Shown here: in pieces, positions 48,306-59,022 of the stretch
Layout of the letters: each line of letters begins with the position of its first letter
How positions within the stretch are numbered: position 1 is the first letter of the stretch
Origin: Novosphingobium resinovorum
GTDB taxonomy: Bacteria; Pseudomonadota; Alphaproteobacteria; Sphingomonadales; Sphingomonadaceae
Direction: 5' to 3'
Assembly: GCF_001742225.1 (NCBI RefSeq)
Contig: NZ_CP017075.1
Span: 3,130,001-3,194,000 of the forward strand
DNA length: 64,000 nucleotides
Notes under the pieces: model-generated
The model's input: only the letters and a program-made list of their open reading frames with translations
Databases searched by the model: none
Told to the model about the DNA's origin: nothing
Made by a program: the position numbers and the translations under genes

Positions 48306-50615
48306 TCAGTGCTTCCGTTCGCGTGTGCTTTCCACCATGCCCGGGGCGATGAAGCCGATCGGCGTCACTTCCATGGCGCGCTTTTTCAGTTCGCCTTTCA
48401 TGCGCTGGTATTCGTCTTCCATGGCTTCGGTCACGGTGGCGCGGCTGTCTTCGAGGGCTTCCTCGAAGTCCTGCATCGTTACTTCTTCCACGCTCGCGCC
48501 GCGTTTGCGGATGGCGATGAGGCCGGCGCGGCGGACGACGTCCTCCAGATCCGCGCCGGTGAAGCGTTCGGTGCGGTCGGCGATCTCGCCCAGGCGTACG
48601 TCCTGCGCCAGCGGCATCTTGCCGGTGTGGATGCCGAGGATGTGTTCGCGGCCCGGGGCGTCGGGGGTGCCGACGTAGACCAGTTCGTCGAAGCGGCCGG
48701 GGCGCAGGAGGGCGGGGTCGACCAGTGCCGGGCGGTTCGTGGCGCCGACGAGGACGACCGACTGCAGTTCCTCCATCCCGTCCATCTCGGCGAGGATGGT
48801 GTTGACCACGCGGGCGGTGACTTGCGGTTCGCTGCCGCCGCCGCCCATGCCGCGGGCGGGGACGAGGCTGTCGATCTCGTCGATGAAGATCACGCAGGGA
48901 GCCACCTGACGGGCGCGGGCGAACAGCTTGGCGATCTGCTGTTCGCTTTCGCCGTACCACTTGCTGAGCAGGTCGGAGGACTTGATCGAGATGAAGTTCG
49001 CCTCGGCCTCTTTCGCCACGGCCTTGGCCAGCAGGGTCTTGCCGGTGCCGGGCGGGCCGTAGAGGAGGAAGCCCTTGGCCGGGCGGATGCCCAGCTTGTG
49101 GAACGCCTCCGGGTTCTTCAGTGGCAGTTCGATGCCTTCCTTCAGCTTGATCTGCGCCTCGTCCAGGCCGCCGATGTCGGCCCAGCCGATGTTCGGCACC
49201 TGCACCATGACCTCGCGCATGGCGGAGGGCTGGACGCGCTTGAGGGCGGCGAGGAAGTCCTCGCGGTAGACCTGCAGGTTGTCGAGCACTTCGGCGGGGA
49301 TGGTGCGCGCCTCGAGGTCGAGCTTGGGCATGATGCGGCGCACCGCCTCGATCGCGGCCTCGCGGGCGAGGGCGGCAAGGTCGGCGCCGACGAAGCCGTG
49401 GGTGGTGCGGGCCAGCTCGTTCAGGTCCACGCGCTCGCTCAGCGGCATGCCGCGCGTGTGGATGCCGAGGATCTCGCGGCGGCCCTTCTCGTCGGGCACG
49501 CCGATGACGATCTCGCGGTCGAAGCGGCCGGGGCGGCGCAGGGCCTCGTCGATGGCGTCGGGGCGGTTGGTGGCGGCGATGACGACCACGTGGGCGCGGC
49601 TGTTGAGGCCGTCCATCAGCGTGAGCAGCTGGGCGACGAGGCGCTTTTCCGCTTCGCCGTGGACCTGGTCGCGCTTGGGGGCGATCGAGTCGATCTCGTC
49701 GATGAAGACGATCGCGGGGGCGGACTTGGTCGCCTCCTCGAAGATCTCGCGCAAGTGCTTCTCGCTCTCGCCATAGCCGGATCCCATGATCTCGGGGCCG
49801 TTGATCGAGAAGAAGCTGGCCTCGCTCTCGTTGGCGACGGCCTGTGCCAGGCGCGTCTTGCCGGTCCCCGGCGGGCCGTGGAGCAGGACGCCCTTGGGCG
49901 GGGCGACGCCGAGGCGGGTGAACAGTTCGGGGTAGCGCAGCGGCAGTTCGACCATTTCGCGCAGCTGGCGGATGGTGTCGCTCATGCCGCCGACGTCGTC
50001 GTAGTTGACGTCGCCGCGCGCGTCGTGGGCTTCCTCGAAGACCTCGCGCAGTTCGACTTCGGTGTTCTCGTCGATGTGGACGATGCCGCGCGGGGTGGTG
50101 GAGACGACGTTGAGGCGGATCTGGGTCAGCGCATAGGCGGGCGCGTTGAACATGCGGCGCAGCTGGGGCGGGATGTCCGCGACCTGCTGCTGGCCGGTGG
50201 TGGCGACGAGGTCTCCCTGCACCATGGGGCGCTGGAAGAAGTTGCGCTTGAGCGCGGCCGAGGGGCCCTGCAGGCGCATGTCCTTCTGCGCCGGCGCGAA
50301 GACGACGCGCTGGGCAGGGCGCGATTCGGCCTTGCGGATGGTGACGTGGTCGCCGGAGCCGACTTCGGCATTGCCGCGCTGGAGGCCGTCGAGGCGGATG
50401 ACGCTGAGGCCCTCGTCCTCGTCGTAGGCGAGTACGGCGCGGGCCACGGTCACGGCCTTGCCGGTGATTTCGAGCACGTCGCCTTCCATGGCGCCGATCT
50501 CGCCCAATGCGGCGCGAGACAGGCGGGCGATGCCCTGGCCGCTCTCTTCCTGACGAGCGGCGGCGACCTGCAGCTTTATGGTGCGGTCTTCGGTCTTGGT
50601 TTCGGTATCCGCCAT
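48306..50615 (-). CDS. CDC48/p97-type AAA+ ATPase
   Basis: The protein is 769 aa with an N domain (double-psi barrel-like part starting [21 protein letters not shown]) followed by two AAA modules. Walker A sites GPPGTGKT lie near residues 245-252 and 518-525, each followed by FIDEIDS as Walker B. Arginine-finger motifs (RRPGRFD, LRPGRFD) are present. This is the archaeal/eukaryal CDC48 architecture, found in some bacteria including sphingomonads. It unfolds or extracts proteins for degradation or recycling. The C terminus ends STRERKH. It is the last minus-strand gene after the candidate small RNA terminator. Confidence 0.95.
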
Positions 50616-52115: not shown

Positions 52116-52883
52116 TCAGTGCTTTAAATTGCTGCTTGCCCGCGCAGACAGGATCGCCCGCGCATCCGCGAGGTCCGAAGGTTTGTCCACGTCCACCGCC
52201 GCGAGCCCGTCGCGTGCGGCGACGAGGCTGGCGGTGACGCCGATCCTGCGGCCCAGCCGTCCGATCGCGTCGCTCAAGGTCAGGCGGCCGAGCGCATAGC
52301 CGATGAGCATGCCGATCCCCAGCCGGGCGGCGATGCGCCAGGGGCGCTTGCGGTCGGCCTCGACCATCTTCCAGGTGTCGATCGCAAGGCCCGCGCGAGG
52401 GCTCGCCAGCAGGAACAGGTTGCAGCCCGACCAGTGGCCGTCGGCGAAGCGCAGGTACGTGCGGCGGCTGCCGGGCATCGCCGCCTCGATCGCCTCGCGC
52501 CGGGCCAGGAGGATGGCGACGTCGCTGCCTTCCGGCGTGTCGGCGAGGAAATCGCGGACCCACTCGGGCTTCAGCAGCGCATGGTCGCTGGTGGTGACGA
52601 GCAGCGGCGCGCCGAGCGTGTCCAGCCCGATGGCAACGCTGGCGCTGGGACCGGTGCCTGTGGCGAGCACCTCGCAGCCGAGTTCCGCGGCGAGATCGCG
52701 CACGTGCGGATCGCTGGCGGAGACGGCGATCCGTGCGATCCCGGCCTCGCGCAGTGCGACGACGACGTGGGCGAGCATTGGCTTGCCCGCTATCTCGACC
52801 AGCGACTTGTGCGCGACGCCTTCGGCCTCGGCGACGGGGTCGGGCGCGCCGGGGCGCGATCCGGCGAGGATCAGGGCGTTCAT
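52116..52883 (-). CDS. Nucleotidyltransferase (MobA/IPCT-like NTP transferase)
   Basis: The protein is 255 aa from ATG 52883. It begins MNALILAGSRPG, the nucleotide-binding loop of NTP transferases (here a looser LAG-SRPG form), followed by the KSLVEIAGKPMLAHVV block and TSDHALL in place of the usual metal-binding GD. The C-terminal part holds a hydrophobic pair of segments and DVDKPSDLADA. It overlaps the next gene by four bases. Among lipid genes the likely task is activating a head-group phosphate with CTP. The gene order and content resemble the Caulobacter cpg locus. Confidence 0.8.
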   Translation of the reverse strand: MNALILAGSRPGAPDPVAEAEGVAHKSLVEIAGKPMLAHVVVALREAGIARIAVSASDPHVRDLAAELGCEVLATGTGPSASVAIGLDTLGAPLLVTTSDHALLKPEWVRDFLADTPEGSDVAILLARREAIEAAMPGSRRTYLRFADGHWSGCNLFLLASPRAGLAIDTWKMVEADRKRPWRIAARLGIGMLIGYALGRLTLSDAIGRLGRRIGVTASLVAARDGLAAVDVDKPSDLADARAILSARASSNLKH

Positions 52884-53815
52884 GCGGTCTTCTCCCGCTT
52901 GCCGCGCCAGACCTGCCAGAGCACGCCGGGGGCGGCGAGGATCGGATGCCGCTCGCGCCAAGGGGTGATCTTCACGGGGACGCCAGTGTGGCGCTCGATC
53001 TTCCAGGCGGCGTAGCGGGCCGCGCCTTCGAAGGTGGTCGATGCCTTGAGGAGCCGCAAAACATTGTAGGGCTTGCCCAGCCGCCGGCGCCGCGCCCACC
53101 ACGACAGGATGCGCGCCCGTTCGTTGGCGGGGAGGGTGGGGCGCAGGCGGCCGCCCTCCTGCGTGACGGCGATTCCGGCGGCGCCGAGCGCCAGCGGCAG
53201 CAGTCCGTCGAAATGGGCACGGTTGGCGGCGAGGATCGAGTCTTCCCGGCCCGCCTTCTCGACGCGGAATTCGGCGGCGTAAGTCGCGCGGAACAAGGCG
53301 CGCCAGTAGTCCTCGGGCGTTCCCGCGTCAGGCCCCAGCGCTACGGCGAGGCGCGCCGCCGTGCGGGCGGCGCCTGCGACGGCCTGCGCGATCGCGGCGC
53401 CGGCGGCCGCGTCGCGCTGCCAGGCGAGAGCGCTCGGCTGAACGAAGCGTGCCCAGATGGTGGTATCGATGCGCTCTCCGGCAGCGGCGGCGCGGAAGGT
53501 CTCCAGCGCCATCGTCGCGACCTTGGCGCGCAACGGAACACCGTCGTGCGTCCATTCGTGATAGCTCACGCGCGGCCAGATCCGCTCGACCTGAGCGCCC
53601 GGCAGCAGCACGTAGAAGTCCAGCACACCCTCCAGCGATCCGGTGCGCAGGTTCGATCCGTAAAACAGCACGCCCAGCGCATCCGCCGCCTGGGCCAGTT
53701 TCCCGGCGAAGGCGCGCACTTCGGGCACGACCTCGCGCGTCAGGGCGGAGGCGATGCGGTCATCGAGAGGGGAATGCGCGATCATTGCCGCGTCAATCGG
53801 ACAGGCCAGCCGCAA
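52880..53815 (-). CDS. Tam41-like nucleotidyltransferase-fold protein (possible CDP-lipid synthase)
   Basis: The protein is 311 aa at most; a later ATG at residue 11 (MIAHSPLDD) may be the start. The segment LFYGSNLRTGSLEGVLDFYVLL resembles the nucleotidyltransferase core of mitochondrial Tam41 (YGSG...LDF), which makes CDP-diacylglycerol from phosphatidic acid. Further parts (YWRALFRATYAAEFRVEK and a basic C terminus) also fit that family in style. It overlaps the upstream nucleotidyltransferase start by ATGA-type spacing and lies beside a lipid kinase. A role in making a CDP-activated lipid is inferred. Confidence 0.62.
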   Translation of the reverse strand: MRLACPIDAAMIAHSPLDDRIASALTREVVPEVRAFAGKLAQAADALGVLFYGSNLRTGSLEGVLDFYVLLPGAQVERIWPRVSYHEWTHDGVPLRAKVATMALETFRAAAAGERIDTTIWARFVQPSALAWQRDAAAGAAIAQAVAGAARTAARLAVALGPDAGTPEDYWRALFRATYAAEFRVEKAGREDSILAANRAHFDGLLPLALGAAGIAVTQEGGRLRPTLPANERARILSWWARRRRLGKPYNVLRLLKASTTFEGAARYAAWKIERHTGVPVKITPWRERHPILAAPGVLWQVWRGKREKTA

Positions 53816-53851
53816 TTACAAGGCGCCAGTTGGAAACCCGGCGGTCCGGCG

Positions 53852-54931
53852 TCAGGGGACGACGAAATTGATCTGCGGCCCTTCCTCGAGCACGTAGCGA
53901 CCGGCCGGGAAAGCCTCTCCGTCGAGGATGAAGGTGCCGCCGATGTCCATGTCGACCTCGCTGGCGCTCACGCGGTGAGCACCCTTGCGGGCGAACAGCT
54001 TGAGGTTGAAGCCGAACATCATCGCGGGCAGCAGCGCCACCAGCCAGCGGATCGGCCAGTCCATCACCGCCAGCTTGAGTCCCGGCGCCGGATTGCGCCC
54101 GAAGGGCTTTGCGCCGAGCGGAAACCGCTCGAAAGTGGTGGCGATGGTCAGGTAGCGCTCGTCCGCACTGCCCTTGCCCATGTAAGGCAGGTGCTGGCCG
54201 GTGCGGCGATCGACGATACGGGTCGGCGTACAGGCGCGCCAGGCGTTGCCGGCCCCGCCGAACAGGGTCTGCAGCACGCCCCAGAGAATGGTGAGGCCGA
54301 CCGCGAAGCTGTTGAACAGACCGCGGCGGTGCGCCTCCTGCCCGGCCTCGGTCGCGAGCGAGAAAGCGCCGGTGCCCAGAATGAAGCCCTGCACGCAGCG
54401 CGCGGTGCCGTCCGCCGGGGAAATCCGCAGCGGGCTGCGCGAGATGGTCCGGCCGCGATGGGCGGAAGCCAGCGCTTCGGCCAGCGACCACTTGTTGGGC
54501 AGACCAAGATCGACCGCCAGCGCGTTCGTCTTGCCCTTGGGCAGTACGATGAACGTGGGCCAATCGTTCCCAAAGATGTCCGCGCCCGCCGAAAGCACGT
54601 CACGCACGGTGCCGTCGCCGCCGTCGACCACGAGATAGTCGATGCCGCGCCGGGCGAACTCGGCCAGCGTGTAGTGCAGTTCCTCACGCGTGGAGGGGGT
54701 CTGCGTCAGGATGTTGGAGCAATCCGCCATCTCGGGCTTGATGCCCATGTTGCGGTGGCTTCGCGGGTTGCGGACGATGCCGACCAGCGGGACCGCACGG
54801 CCGCGGCGCGCCGGACGAACCGTGCGCGCGCCGTCGCGGCGACCAAGCTCGCCGAAGATCGGCAGCGTCTCGAAGGTGTGAATACTTCCGTGCACGGCGT
54901 ACCATGTAGTATCGCTAGCTCGGAAAATCAC
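53852..54931 (-). CDS. Lipid kinase of the LCB5/diacylglycerol kinase family (possible ceramide kinase)
   Basis: The protein is up to 359 aa. The start is uncertain: GTG 54931 is the longest form and GTG 54895 is an alternative. The nucleotide-binding GGDGT motif is in VVDGGDGTVRDVL, followed by PKGKTNALAVDLG. The C-terminal FILDGEAFPAG matches the conserved D-G-E block of this kinase family. These enzymes phosphorylate diacylglycerol, sphingosine or ceramide. In a sphingolipid-making organism, with CDP-alcohol and nucleotidyl transferases next to it, ceramide is a reasonable substrate. It is divergent from the CDP-alcohol phosphatidyltransferase. Confidence 0.82.
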   Translation of the reverse strand: MIFRASDTTWYAVHGSIHTFETLPIFGELGRRDGARTVRPARRGRAVPLVGIVRNPRSHRNMGIKPEMADCSNILTQTPSTREELHYTLAEFARRGIDYLVVDGGDGTVRDVLSAGADIFGNDWPTFIVLPKGKTNALAVDLGLPNKWSLAEALASAHRGRTISRSPLRISPADGTARCVQGFILGTGAFSLATEAGQEAHRRGLFNSFAVGLTILWGVLQTLFGGAGNAWRACTPTRIVDRRTGQHLPYMGKGSADERYLTIATTFERFPLGAKPFGRNPAPGLKLAVMDWPIRWLVALLPAMMFGFNLKLFARKGAHRVSASEVDMDIGGTFILDGEAFPAGRYVLEEGPQINFVVP

Positions 54932-55057
54932 CCAGAAATATGCTCTGACACATTTGGGTTACAGTTTAATGGCGCTTGTTACCGTATCGACACGCTTGTG
55001 GCCGAACCAAGGCGCCTGAGATTGTCACCCGGTCCGCGAGGCACTACGTGGCGGTCC

Positions 55058-56191
55058 ATGGTCCACAATACGCAAGTGCTGCCGGTCGTCACGATCGGTG
55101 AAAATCCCGTGAAGCTGTGGGGCCTGAGCCCTTCGGTGCGGGTCGGTCGGATCGCCCGCGCCGCCGGGCTCGAGCCCGTCGACGGCGTGCCCGAAGGCCC
55201 GGCGATACTTTCCAACGCAGCGTTTGCGTGGGACCCGGCGTGGTTCGGAAACATCACCGGACGGCAGGGCACGGTGCTGACTTTGGGCGGTGTTCCGGCA
55301 CTTGCCCATGCTGCGGATGCACATCAGGCGGCGCGAGTCGCGGCTGCCATGGCGGCGGGCCTGCCGTTGGTCGATTCGACCGGGTTCGAGGTCGTCGCCT
55401 ATGAAGACGGCCCGACCATCGAGAACAAGCAGCTTCGCAAGCGCGAGACGCCGTTCCTGATGGCGCTGACCCCCGCGACGCTGCGGCCGATCGAGCGCGC
55501 GAGCTACTTCGGCGCCTACAAGGGCGTGACCGACGTGCTGACCAAGTACCTCTGGCCGGAATGGGCGCTGGTGCTGACGCGGATCTGCGCGAAGCTGGGC
55601 GTGACGCCGAACATGGTCACGACCGTCGGCGCGGTGTTCTGCGTAATCGCCACCGTGCTCTTTGCTTACGGCCATTACTGGCTGGGCATGGCGCTGGGCC
55701 TCGTGTTCATGGTGCTCGACACCGTGGACGGCAAGCTGGCGCGCTGCACGATCACCTCCTCGGCCTGGGGCAACGTGTTCGACCACGGCATGGACCTTGT
55801 CCATCCGCCGTTCTGGTGGTGGTTCTGGGCGACGGGCCTCGCGTACTGGGGGATGTCCTACGATACCGCGACGTTCTGGTGGGTCCAGGCGGCCATCCAG
55901 GGCGGCTATGTGGTCCAGCGCCTGATCGAAGGGGCGTTCATCCGGTTTGCCGGAATGCACATCCACGTGTGGCGGCCGTTCGACAGCAAGTTCCGCCTGA
56001 TCACCGCGCGGCGCAACCCGAACATGGTGATCCTGTTCGCGGCGATGGTGTTCTCGCGCCCCGACCTCGGCCTGATCGCGGTAGCCTGGTGGACGGCCCT
56101 GTCGTGCCTGATCCACGCCGTGCGGCTGGCGCAGGCATGGATCGTGCGGGCGCGCGGTGGCACGATCACCTCCTGGCTGGCGGAAGGCTGA
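55058..56191 (+). CDS. CDP-alcohol phosphatidyltransferase with N-terminal extension
   Basis: The protein is 377 aa from ATG 55058; the open frame upstream runs antisense over other genes. The membrane domain has the complete family motif D-x2-D-G-x2-A-R-x8-G-x3-D-x3-D, seen as DTVDGKLARC...WGNVFDHGMD, with about six helices. The first 130 or so residues are soluble and unlike normal family members. They could be a remnant of a nucleotidyltransferase domain, as in bifunctional inositol-phosphate enzymes. The enzyme would join a CDP-activated lipid or head group to an alcohol. The final W-L-A-E-G is followed at once by the HIT gene. Confidence 0.88.
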   Translation: MVHNTQVLPVVTIGENPVKLWGLSPSVRVGRIARAAGLEPVDGVPEGPAILSNAAFAWDPAWFGNITGRQGTVLTLGGVPALAHAADAHQAARVAAAMAAGLPLVDSTGFEVVAYEDGPTIENKQLRKRETPFLMALTPATLRPIERASYFGAYKGVTDVLTKYLWPEWALVLTRICAKLGVTPNMVTTVGAVFCVIATVLFAYGHYWLGMALGLVFMVLDTVDGKLARCTITSSAWGNVFDHGMDLVHPPFWWWFWATGLAYWGMSYDTATFWWVQAAIQGGYVVQRLIEGAFIRFAGMHIHVWRPFDSKFRLITARRNPNMVILFAAMVFSRPDLGLIAVAWWTALSCLIHAVRLAQAWIVRARGGTITSWLAEG

Positions 56192-56196
56192 AGATT

Positions 56197-56628
56197 ATGA
56201 ACGCTACAATCGAGAAGTTCGGCTGGCCCGCGACGCTGGTGGCGGAGTTCGACCACTGGGTCGTGCTCGCGCGGCCCGCGCAGCCGACGCTCGGCTCGCT
56301 GGTGTTGGCGGCGAAGAGCGATGTCACCGCCTTCGGCGACCTACCGGCCGAGGCGCATGCCGAATTGAAGCGCGCGACTGGCGCCATCGAGGCGGCGCTG
56401 GGCAAGGCGGTCGGCTATGCCAAGCTCAACTACCTGATGCTGATGATGGTGGACCCGCACGTCCACTTCCACGTCATCCCCCGCTACGAAGGCGCGCGCG
56501 AGTGGCAGGGGCGCGAGTTCGTCGACTGCGGCTGGCCCAAGGTGCCGGACCTTGGCCATGCGGTGGCGCTGGAGGGCGCGGATCTCGATGCGCTGGTGGC
56601 TTGGCTGAAGGGGTTTTTCGAGGGCTGA
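56197..56628 (+). CDS. HIT-family protein
   Basis: The protein is 143 aa. The histidine triad is HVHFHVIPR, inside the usual VDPHVHFHVIPRY context. HIT proteins hydrolyse or transfer nucleotides from dinucleotides or nucleotide conjugates. It begins five bases after the CDP-alcohol phosphatidyltransferase stop, so they share an mRNA. A job in cleaving a nucleotidyl-activated intermediate of the lipid pathway is possible but unproven. Confidence 0.88.
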   Translation: MNATIEKFGWPATLVAEFDHWVVLARPAQPTLGSLVLAAKSDVTAFGDLPAEAHAELKRATGAIEAALGKAVGYAKLNYLMLMMVDPHVHFHVIPRYEGAREWQGREFVDCGWPKVPDLGHAVALEGADLDALVAWLKGFFEG

Positions 56629-56630
56629 TG

Positions 56631-56746
56631 CCCACCCTGTCCGGCTAGATCGCTTCGCCCCCAAGCCTCCCAGCCCTCCCGCACGCGGGAGGGCGAAACG
56701 ATGGGCTCTCATTCCCCTCCCGCGTGCGGGAGGGGGCAGCGGTGGG
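56631..56746. repeat. Intergenic palindromic repeat, family A (copy 2)
   Basis: It starts CCCACCCTGTCCGGCTA, holds CCTCCCGC..GCGGGAGGG modules twice and ends GGTGGGC. It fills the space between the convergent HIT and nucleotidyltransferase genes. Confidence 0.75.
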
Positions 56747-56749
56747 CTC

Positions 56750-57505
56750 TCACCACGTATCGGTGAGCTTCGTCGCGATCTCGATGTCGTTGAGGAAGTC
56801 CACCTCGGCCCAGTCCAGCCCCTCGATCGAAACAGTGCCGACCTTGCCGGTGGGCGCGATCGAATCGATCACCTTCAGATACCAGTGCTGGACGCCCTCG
56901 GGCGTGCGCATGGCCTGGCGCACGGTCTCGCGGAACAGGTCCGCGCCTTCGCCCCGGAATGCGAGGAAGCCGATCGATTCGGAATTGGACTGCGCCGCCG
57001 TCAGCGTCTTGCCGATGTGGATCAGGCGGCCTTCGGGGCTGCGTTCCACCTTCATGTCGTCGCTGTCGTAGCCGTCCGCCTTGACGTCCACCGTCACGGT
57101 GATCGGCCAGGGCTTGCCGTCGGGACCGGCCGCGCCCTGCTGGACCGTGCGCACGATCTCCTCCGACACCAGCGTGTCGCCGTTGAGGATCAGGAAGTCA
57201 CCGCGCATCGCCTCGCGCGCGATCCAGCACGAGCCGAGGTTGTCGGCCACCTTGAAGAAGGGATTGAATCGCACCGTGATTTCCACGCGCGGGTCACGGA
57301 TGGAATTGAGGTGCTCCTCCAGCATGTCGGTCATGAAGCCGGTGACCACGTCGATCCGCTTGACCCCGCCGCGCGCCAGCATCTCGATCTGCCACTCGAT
57401 CAGCGAGCGGCCGGAGAAGTCGATCAGGCACTTGGGACGCTCGGCCGTGAGGGGGAGCAGGCGTGAGCCCTGGCCGGCGCTGAGGAGGATGGCGTGTTCG
57501 ATCAT
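56750..57505 (-). CDS. Nucleotidyltransferase of the sugar-1-phosphate / phosphocholine cytidylyltransferase type
   Basis: The protein is 251 aa. The nucleotide-binding signature is LSAGQGSRLLPLTAERPKCLIDF, an almost ideal G-x-G-[ST]-R-x-x-P..K. The segment NPFFKVADNLGSCWIAREAM followed by DFLILNGDTL resembles LicC and inositol-phosphate cytidylyltransferases, which make CDP-choline or CDP-inositol. The second metal ligand lies in WAEVDFLND. It is in the middle of the lipid-modification cluster and may activate the polar head group. Confidence 0.86.
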   Translation of the reverse strand: MIEHAILLSAGQGSRLLPLTAERPKCLIDFSGRSLIEWQIEMLARGGVKRIDVVTGFMTDMLEEHLNSIRDPRVEITVRFNPFFKVADNLGSCWIAREAMRGDFLILNGDTLVSEEIVRTVQQGAAGPDGKPWPITVTVDVKADGYDSDDMKVERSPEGRLIHIGKTLTAAQSNSESIGFLAFRGEGADLFRETVRQAMRTPEGVQHWYLKVIDSIAPTGKVGTVSIEGLDWAEVDFLNDIEIATKLTDTW

Positions 57506-57654
57506 GTGTCATTCAGTCTGCTTGGGGGAAGGGGGCATCTAGCGACTGCACTGCGAAAGGGAAAGCTCTGGCGGGGCGATCCGAGCCGGCCATACGTACA
57601 AGAAGAGCGAGCCCACCCTTGCAACTGACAGCCCCCTCGTCCAAATGCGAGCCA

Positions 57655-59022
57655 ATGTCCGCCAAACGCTACCGCCAGGAGAGTGCATCTCCGCTAGGGC
57701 GGATACTCCAGAACACCGCCTGGCTGCTCGGCGGCAAGGGCTTCGGCGCGATTTGCGGCCTGGCGTATCTCGCCATCCAGACGCGCACCCTCGGCCTCAA
57801 GGATTTCGGCCACTTCTCGCTGATCTTCGGCACCGCGCAGGCGCTGACCTCGCTCGCAGGCTTCCAGACCTGGCGAGTCGTCGTGCGCTACGGGTCGGAG
57901 CATGTCCACGCGAAGGACTGGGAGAAGTTCGGCCGCCTCGGCATGCTGTGCGGCGTGATCGATGCGGTCGGTGCGATTCTCGGCTGCGGGCTGGCGGCGA
58001 TCCTGATCTTCGGCTTCGCGCATCTGCTCGAACTCAACCCCAGCTTCATCCATATCGCGTTCTGGTACTGCGTCGGCTCGCTCTGGGCGCTGGTTTCAGC
58101 CCCGACCGGGATCGTGCGCGCGCTCAACCGGTTCGATATGGCCGTCTATGTCGAGGCGATCGTGCCGAGCGGGCGCCTCGTCGCCGCGCTGATCATCTGG
58201 TTCACCGGGCCGACCGTCGGCCGGTTCCTGGCGGCCTGGGCCGCAATCGATATTCTCGAGGCCATCCTCTACTGGACCATGGCCCGCCGCCTCAGCCCGC
58301 AGGCGGTGCGGATTTCCTACCTCTTCCAGCTGCGCCGCGCGATCCGGGAGAACCCGGGCGTCACCCAGTTCTTCTTCGTCACCTACATGGGCTCGGCCAT
58401 CGATGCGGCCATGAAGAACGGCCCGCTGCTGGTCGTCGGCGGCTGGGTCGGCACCAAGGCGGCGGGCCTCTACCGCCTCGCCTCGCAGCTGTCGCAGGCG
58501 CTGAGCAAGCTTTCCACGCTGCTGACCCGCTCGGTCTATGCCGAAGTGGCCCGCGTCCGCGTCGCCTCCAAGGCCGAGGAATTCCGCAAGCTGGCGCTCC
58601 AGACCAGCCTGATCGCGGGCGGTGCGGGCCTTGCCGTGGTGGCGGTCGCGTACTTCCTCGGCGAGCAGCTGCTGGCGATGATCGGCGGCGATGCCTTCGA
58701 AAGCGGCGCCTCGATCCTCATCCCGCTGGCCGTGGCCGCCAGCTTCGACCTTGCCAGCGTGGCGTTCGAGCCGGTGCTGCACTCGACCGGCAAGGCGCGC
58801 CAGTCGCTCGTCGCGCGCCTGATCGCGCTGGCGGCGCTGGGCGTGGGCCTGTGGCAGTTCATCCCCATCGGCCCGAGCGGCGCGGCCTGGGCCGTGGCGC
58901 TGGCGGGGGCGACCTCCTACGTCGCCATGGGCGTGATGGCGTGGCATACGCTGCGTCAGGTCGATGCGGGCAAGATCATGGTGGGCCTGCCCGATGACGC
59001 CGAGATCGGGCCGGAGGAGTAA
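57655..59022 (+). CDS. Polysaccharide/lipid flippase (Wzx-like, MOP superfamily)
   Basis: The protein is 455 aa from ATG 57655 (TTG 57619 is upstream in frame). It has about 14 membrane helices in the Wzx pattern: an N-terminal amphipathic start (ILQNTAWLLGGKGFGAICGLAYL) and paired helices throughout, with charged residues inside the membrane. Such flippases move undecaprenyl-linked sugars or lipids across the inner membrane. Next to lipid head-group genes it could flip the finished lipid, but polysaccharide repeat units are equally possible. It is divergent from the nucleotidyltransferase, about 150 bases apart. Confidence 0.83.
   Translation: MSAKRYRQESASPLGRILQNTAWLLGGKGFGAICGLAYLAIQTRTLGLKDFGHFSLIFGTAQALTSLAGFQTWRVVVRYGSEHVHAKDWEKFGRLGMLCGVIDAVGAILGCGLAAILIFGFAHLLELNPSFIHIAFWYCVGSLWALVSAPTGIVRALNRFDMAVYVEAIVPSGRLVAALIIWFTGPTVGRFLAAWAAIDILEAILYWTMARRLSPQAVRISYLFQLRRAIRENPGVTQFFFVTYMGSAIDAAMKNGPLLVVGGWVGTKAAGLYRLASQLSQALSKLSTLLTRSVYAEVARVRVASKAEEFRKLALQTSLIAGGAGLAVVAVAYFLGEQLLAMIGGDAFESGASILIPLAVAASFDLASVAFEPVLHSTGKARQSLVARLIALAALGVGLWQFIPIGPSGAAWAVALAGATSYVAMGVMAWHTLRQVDAGKIMVGLPDDAEIGPEE

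Follow-up and report, generated by a model that had tools for sequence, protein, structure and literature searches.

The closest described systems are the genes for the ceramide phosphoglycerate lipids (CPG and CPG2) of Caulobacter crescentus. In that species, the ceramide kinase CC_1160 (CpgB) and CC_1161 (CpgC) are reported to be required for CPG, and CC_1159 (CpgA), CC_1158, CC_1153 and CC_1152 (CpgD) for efficient production of CPG2 (PMC11324152). Caulobacter CpgB is active in vitro on ceramide and also on diacylglycerol (PMC10331486), CpgD makes CDP-glycerate, and CPG2 is critical once lipopolysaccharide is lost (PMC12275187). Here, we analyzed a window of 64,000 nucleotides from Novosphingobium resinovorum (C1:3130001-3194000 of a 6.9 Mb genome) that carries, at positions 52116-59022, seven genes in the order NT1-CpgC-CpgB (minus strand), CpgA-HIT (plus), CpgD (minus) and a flippase-like gene (plus). 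This gene set is a real and conserved one of an already recognised kind, with one open chemical step. It matches, in rearranged form, the Caulobacter CPG/CPG2 head-group set, and its enzymes very probably make a ceramide lipid of negative charge. The two nucleotidyltransferases, Tam41-like protein, LCB5-type kinase, CDP-alcohol enzyme and HIT protein that an earlier note had listed from the DNA letters are all present, as judged by Pfam, sequence motifs and a structure model, and the flippase-like gene extends the set beyond the end of the interval considered in that note.

Kinship with the Caulobacter genes and association with ceramide synthesis

Gene co-occurrence was surveyed across an evenly drawn sample of 241 Alphaproteobacteria genomes, that of Novosphingobium included, using gene sets compiled by hand; Fisher p-values calculated from these sets ignore shared ancestry. 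CpgC was found in 33 genomes at a cut of E<=4.6e-22, with G055 left out (E 2.2e-4, two internal stops). Serine palmitoyltransferase (SPT; E<=1e-90) is encoded in all 33, vs 6 of the 208 others. The kinase was likewise counted in 33 of 33 CpgC genomes, although this number is soft because the weakest CpgC genome (E 3.1e-7) and the strongest other genome (8.6e-7) lie close together and the cut was chosen knowing the answer. Gene neighborhoods were examined by tblastn at 80 named sphingomonad loci, several of which are short contigs, so that a neighbor missing there is weak evidence, and in 30 class-wide stretches containing CpgC, none longer than 20 kb. The kinase gene adjoins cpgC on the same strand at all 80 named loci and at 25 of the 30 class-wide ones, a recurrence beyond chance; no match to the kinase was obtained in the stretches examined at the other five. 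Many of the class-wide loci lie among ceramide genes, with SPT called in 19 of the 30. The SPT of Novosphingobium itself (L198:9602-10822) scores 804.8 bits against an NCBIfam cut-off of 670 and is preceded by an acyl carrier protein that shares 63% identity with AcpR of the class-wide locus L121.

The class-wide gene maps link the set to Caulobacter. Locus L139 has the order NT1, CerS, hydroxylase-like gene, LptG, LptF, HIT, metallophosphoesterase (MPE), CpgA, CpgB, CpgC, one open reading frame (ORF), SPT, AcpR, CerR and AasR, which is close to the order published for CC_1153-CC_1165. Most of this order is retained in L116, L117 and L136, all from distant relatives of Novosphingobium, and much of it is displayed by a Roseomonas plasmid (L203) with public annotation. 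In these maps, the names CerS, CerR, AasR, AcpR, Lpt and hydroxylase were assigned by position and likeness, some CpgC, CpgB and AcpR genes are uncalled, the place of cpgC in L116 is called as another ORF, and L118 and L119, which have no gene calls, were left out. Gene content and order in relatives, rather than sequence orthology, thereby bear out the kinship that the earlier note had proposed. The Caulobacter region CC_1152-CC_1168 and the Novosphingobium set share the kinase, the Tam41-like protein and the CDP-alcohol enzyme, and probably also a CpgD-type and a CofC-like nucleotidyltransferase and a flippase, with SPT encoded in both genomes, but gene order and directions in Novosphingobium are changed and its SPT gene is distant (at 2464601, vs a cluster beginning at 3182116). 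A search with the metallophosphoesterase of L116, taken as the CC_1158 type, returned nothing at E<=0.001 from the Novosphingobium genome, whereas 19 of the 33 CpgC genomes gave a strong match (E<=1e-32). The CC_1158 phosphoesterase is described as non-essential, and orthologs are reported as absent from Sphingomonas wittichii and H. neptunium (PMC11324152). S. wittichii is thus another sphingomonad with the CPG2 set and without CC_1158; its orthologs are spread over 6 distant regions, whereas the seven Novosphingobium genes lie within 7 kb.

CpgC and the proposed activation of ceramide

The predicted model of CpgC has the fold of Tam41, and its nearest solved relatives in a Foldseek search are by far Tam41 structures (6ig4, 6ig2 and 7ecd), one of which has CTP bound. 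CpgC shares with the Tam41 CDP-diacylglycerol (CDP-DAG) synthase the fold over about 210-219 residues, the YGS motif region and a single catalytic Asp. It differs in being only 12-13% identical, in being missed by the Pfam model, in its genomic tie to ceramide genes, and in having helices after residue 262 that fall outside the alignment. D66 of CpgC is invariant and Y68 nearly invariant. As judged without superposition on a Tam41 structure, Y68 stands where the second acid of the DxD of this fold would be. Tam41/Mmp37 proteins are described as keeping a single acid out of the three that are usual in the fold (PMC11646218), and CpgC shows the same pattern. Because the profile PF09139 is not passed, we do not file CpgC as a member of the Tam41/Mmp37 family and say only that it works like one. 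Sequence-based alignment of CpgC likewise recovered no Tam41.

CpgC probably activates ceramide with a nucleotide. The analysis upholds the earlier note in placing a CTP-activating, Tam41-type step on a lipid, and the presence of SPT in all 33 CpgC genomes favors, as the note had it, ceramide over diacylglycerol as the likely kinase substrate. The further claim that a CTP-activated lipid would be new was too strong, given that Olea-Ozuna et al. 2024 already suggested that CC_1161 makes a nucleoside diphosphate-activated ceramide (PMC11324152). A 2025 paper (PMC12275187) and a 2026 preprint on CpgD (PMC13228409) call the mechanism of CpgC unidentified, and the term 'CDP-ceramide' is absent from the literature searched, which covers few subscription papers. 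The brief published suggestion on this step is sharpened by the Tam41 fold of CpgC, by its link to SPT and by the finding of CdsA in the same genomes (see below).

Two parts of the pathway

Co-occurrence divides the pathway in two: CpgB and CpgC (with NT1) make up one part, CpgA and CpgD (with HIT) the other. CpgA (E<=2.2e-67) was detected in 20 of the 241 genomes, all of which have CpgC, and is absent from 13 of the 33 CpgC genomes; CpgD (E<=3.2e-53, next best match 6.5e-20) occurs in exactly the same 20. This identity of distribution suggests that CpgA probably adds the second phosphoglycerate. In Caulobacter, CpgA is not needed for attachment of the first glycerate, because CC_1160 alone restores CPG in a CC_1159/CC_1160 mutant (PMC11324152). 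The split fits these Caulobacter genetics, in which CpgA is dispensable for CPG, and CpgA and CpgD serve CPG2. The residues R15, K25 and D110 of Novosphingobium CpgD resemble in kind and place, as judged without aligning the two sequences, the R16, K26 and D112 named for the Caulobacter enzyme (PMC12275187).

CpgA was found at 23 of the 80 named sphingomonad loci and in none of the stretches examined at loci titled Erythrobacter, Altererythrobacter or Qipengyuania; G207, the one CpgC genome of this family that was searched whole, has no CpgA either. The HIT gene accompanies CpgA at all 23 of these named loci and at 6 of the 13 class-wide ones, and at none of the 74 loci without CpgA, which associates the HIT protein with the CpgA-CpgD part. 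In several class-wide genomes HIT lies between LptF and MPE, where the published order has CC_1157, and by this analogy it may be CC_1157, a gene called probably unrelated to the pathway (PMC11324152). On the LptG side of the cluster, L124, L125, L128 and L129 (three Dongia-type and one Reyranella-like) have an additional CDP-alcohol phosphotransferase, 400-460 amino acids long and with another N-terminal region.

NT1 follows CpgB and CpgC rather than CpgA and CpgD: it was detected (E<=2.5e-33) in none of the 208 genomes without CpgC and in 30 of the 33 that have it, and ten of these 30 lack CpgA. The exceptions are G207 and G221, with a weaker match only, and G173, in which a fragment lies close to the end of a contig. 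The best NCBIfam name for NT1, cofC, is a matter of likeness only (31.2 bits, far below the cut-off of 105), and its position in relatives fits CC_1153. The closest solved relative is TTHA0179 of Thermus thermophilus (2dpw), which matches NT1 over nearly its whole length with 32% identity. It is 'hypothetical' in the PDB and comes from another phylum; the main phospholipid of Thermus is diacylglycerol-based and also bears a phosphate-linked glycerate. A weaker relative of NT1 is encoded elsewhere in the Novosphingobium genome (L200:4414-5235; 33% identity, E 8.3e-27). Matches of about this strength are all that G207 and G221 have, whereas G031 and G140 have such a match as a second copy.

Proposed pathway and alternative explanations

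We consider it fairly probable that, taken as a whole, these genes build a ceramide phosphoglycerate head group in Novosphingobium as follows. CpgC, as a nucleotidyltransferase of the Tam41 fold, would add CMP from CTP to give CDP-ceramide, from which an enzyme other than CpgA would form CPG by replacing CMP with glycerate. CpgD would produce CDP-glycerate, from which CpgA would move the phosphoglycerate onto CPG, yielding CPG2. The HIT protein might act in support of CpgA, possibly by removing an intermediate linked to CDP or to a nucleoside monophosphate, and NT1 would be one more nucleotidyltransferase, associated with CpgB and CpgC. The genes, folds and co-occurrence come from the present analysis, and the in vitro activities of CpgB and CpgD and the CPG/CPG2 genetics from Caulobacter work by others; from these we infer the CpgC reaction, the CpgA donor and the roles of HIT and NT1.

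Several observations weigh against this scheme. Normalised by query length, the CpgC model reaches only moderate TM-scores with Tam41 (0.47-0.52), and the root-mean-square deviations are 4.6-7.9. Novosphingobium CpgC has no Pfam match to Tam41_Mmp37 (PF09139), which is matched by 2 of 30 relatives (E<=1; best E 7.7e-7), and a scan of 144 genomes with the Tam41 profile hit one place only, below the cut-off. Orthology to the C. crescentus proteins is drawn from gene order and content and not from direct sequence comparison. The distribution of NT1 with CpgB and CpgC fits poorly with the CC_1153 mutant, which loses CPG2 and still makes CPG (PMC11324152). Finally, some CpgC genomes seem to be without a spare CDP-alcohol enzyme for CDP-ceramide. 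PF01066 genes were counted in 16 genomes, namely the 13 CpgC genomes without CpgA and three with it; six of the 13 (G021, G132, G133, G140, G213 and G221) have just two such genes, and between three and five are present in each of the remaining seven. By tblastn, the two genes of G021, G132, G140 and G221 look like one PgsA and one PssA, so that no dedicated CDP-alcohol enzyme is left for CDP-ceramide in these four; the second gene of G133 is ambiguous. Such genomes imply either that CDP-ceramide is used by a phosphotransferase with housekeeping duties or by a member of some other enzyme family, or that the chemistry of CpgC differs. Co-occurrence nevertheless narrows the search for the CPG synthase. 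The fourth CDP-alcohol enzyme of Novosphingobium (L199:2636-3310, C1:2302635-2303309) was rejected for this role, strong relatives (E<=1.1e-37) being present in only 3 of the 240 other genomes, of which only G031 has CpgC.

A different chemistry on the Tam41 fold, for instance glycerate joined directly to ceramide-1-phosphate with no free CDP-ceramide, would agree with the loss of CPG in the CC_1161 mutant (PMC11324152), with the fact that no separate transferase is known, and with the two-gene genomes just described. We regard it as unlikely given that the nearest solved relatives are by far Tam41, one with CTP bound, and that Olea-Ozuna et al. judged direct attachment of glycerate energetically not very favorable (PMC11324152). 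The transferase could instead be CpgA itself, as the earlier note had it, joining CDP-ceramide to a polar alcohol while CpgD and NT1 serve other jobs. CpgA is a CDP-alcohol phosphotransferase encoded divergently next to cpgB and cpgC; it carries the motif of these enzymes, D..DG..AR(8-9)G...D...D, behind a region of about 170 N-terminal residues of its own. Among NCBIfam models it comes closest to phosphatidylinositol phosphate synthase (E 4.9e-14) and archaetidylinositol phosphate synthase (E 1.4e-11), falling well short of the cut-off in each case; these two enzymes use a CDP-lipid donor. This assignment does not hold up well, and we rate it as quite unlikely: CpgA is missing from 13 of the 33 CpgC genomes, its genome set is identical to that of CpgD, and CPG is made in the CC_1159/CC_1160 mutant with CC_1160 alone (PMC11324152).

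A glycerolipid branch, with the kinase acting on diacylglycerol and the Tam41-like protein as a second CDP-DAG synthase, would accord with the in vitro activity of CpgB on diacylglycerol (PMC10331486) and with the synthesis of CDP-DAG by Tam41 (PMC7018664). A CdsA-type protein (PF01148) is encoded in all 33 CpgC genomes, so that CpgC is dispensable for CDP-DAG; together with the universal presence of SPT, the many class-wide loci among ceramide genes and the finding that phosphatidic acid is unchanged upon cpgB deletion in Caulobacter (PMC10331486), this makes such a branch very improbable. Returning to activation of ceramide by CpgC, a broader conjecture is possible, if doubtful: CpgC would be a CDP-ceramide synthase, and NT1 would belong to a new nucleotidyltransferase family serving phosphate-linked glycerate head groups, which proteobacteria would carry on ceramide and Thermus on diacylglycerol. 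Genomes left with only a PgsA-like and a PssA-like enzyme would then use CDP-ceramide through one of their housekeeping phosphotransferases or through an enzyme from a different family.

Layout of the gene set and plasmid-borne relatives

The features are listed in Table 1, with gene starts set by coding score and not by experiment. The start of NT1 overlaps the cpgC stop by 4 bases, and the HIT gene begins 5 bases past the cpgA stop. The conserved block between cpgB and cpgA is, by eye, clear in 12 of 19 aligned sequences and partial or absent in 7, and is possibly an operator or promoter candidate. The flippase-like protein is matched at 25 of the 80 named loci. Of all 80, the locus of Novosphingobium resinovorum VKM B-1172 is the nearest, with a CpgC 97% identical and the same arrangement.

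Table 1. Features of the ceramide phosphoglycerate-type gene set (window positions)
Feature	Position	Strand	Description
NT1	52116..52883	-	GlmU/IspD/CofC-like nucleotidyltransferase; Pfam NTP_transf_3, 63.2 bits; likely counterpart of CC_1153
CpgC	52880..53785	-	Tam41-fold protein, without a Pfam hit; proposed CTP:ceramide-1-phosphate cytidylyltransferase; motif YGSNLRTGSLEGVLDFY
CpgB	53852..54895	-	LCB5/DAGK-type lipid kinase (ceramide kinase); DAGK_cat PF00781, 41.6 bits; GGDGT
Conserved block, divergent cpgB-cpgA region	54923..54966		Minus-strand letters aactgtaacccaaatgtgtcagagcatatttctgggtgattttc; alignment of window and 18 relatives
CpgA	55058..56191	+	CDP-alcohol phosphotransferase; PF01066, 33.4 bits; full motif DTVDGKLARCTITSSAWGNVFDHGMD at residues 221-246
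HIT-family protein	56197..56628	+	PF01230, 26 bits vs cut-off 21.5; motif HVHFH
CpgD	56750..57505	-	Cytidylyltransferase; NTP_transferase PF00483, 52.8 bits; likely counterpart of CCNA_01210 (CDP-glycerate synthase)
Polysaccharide/lipid flippase-like protein	57655..59022	+	PF01943, 45.3 bits (on 57619-59022); possible counterpart of CC_1166

In addition, tblastn matches to CpgC were obtained on 17 plasmid records, 13 of them from Roseomonas. A conjugative IncP plasmid of Diaphorobacter (L202; NZ_CP065408.1 47868-76746) carries a CpgD type, NT1, two CDP-alcohol enzymes, LptF/LptG, HIT, MPE, CpgC and the kinase, next to mercury-resistance genes and with no SPT listed in the stretch shown; such a phosphosphingolipid cluster on a conjugative plasmid suggests horizontal spread of the pathway. 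The Roseomonas plasmid mentioned above (NZ_CP061179.1 154550-181320) has a near-complete cluster, and a plasmid of Qipengyuania citrea (L204; NZ_CP098495.1 174301-187170) a bare CpgB-CpgC pair. Just outside the Novosphingobium cluster, positions 48306-50615 encode a protein of 769 amino acids with two GPPGTGKT motifs, presumably Cdc48/VCP-like.

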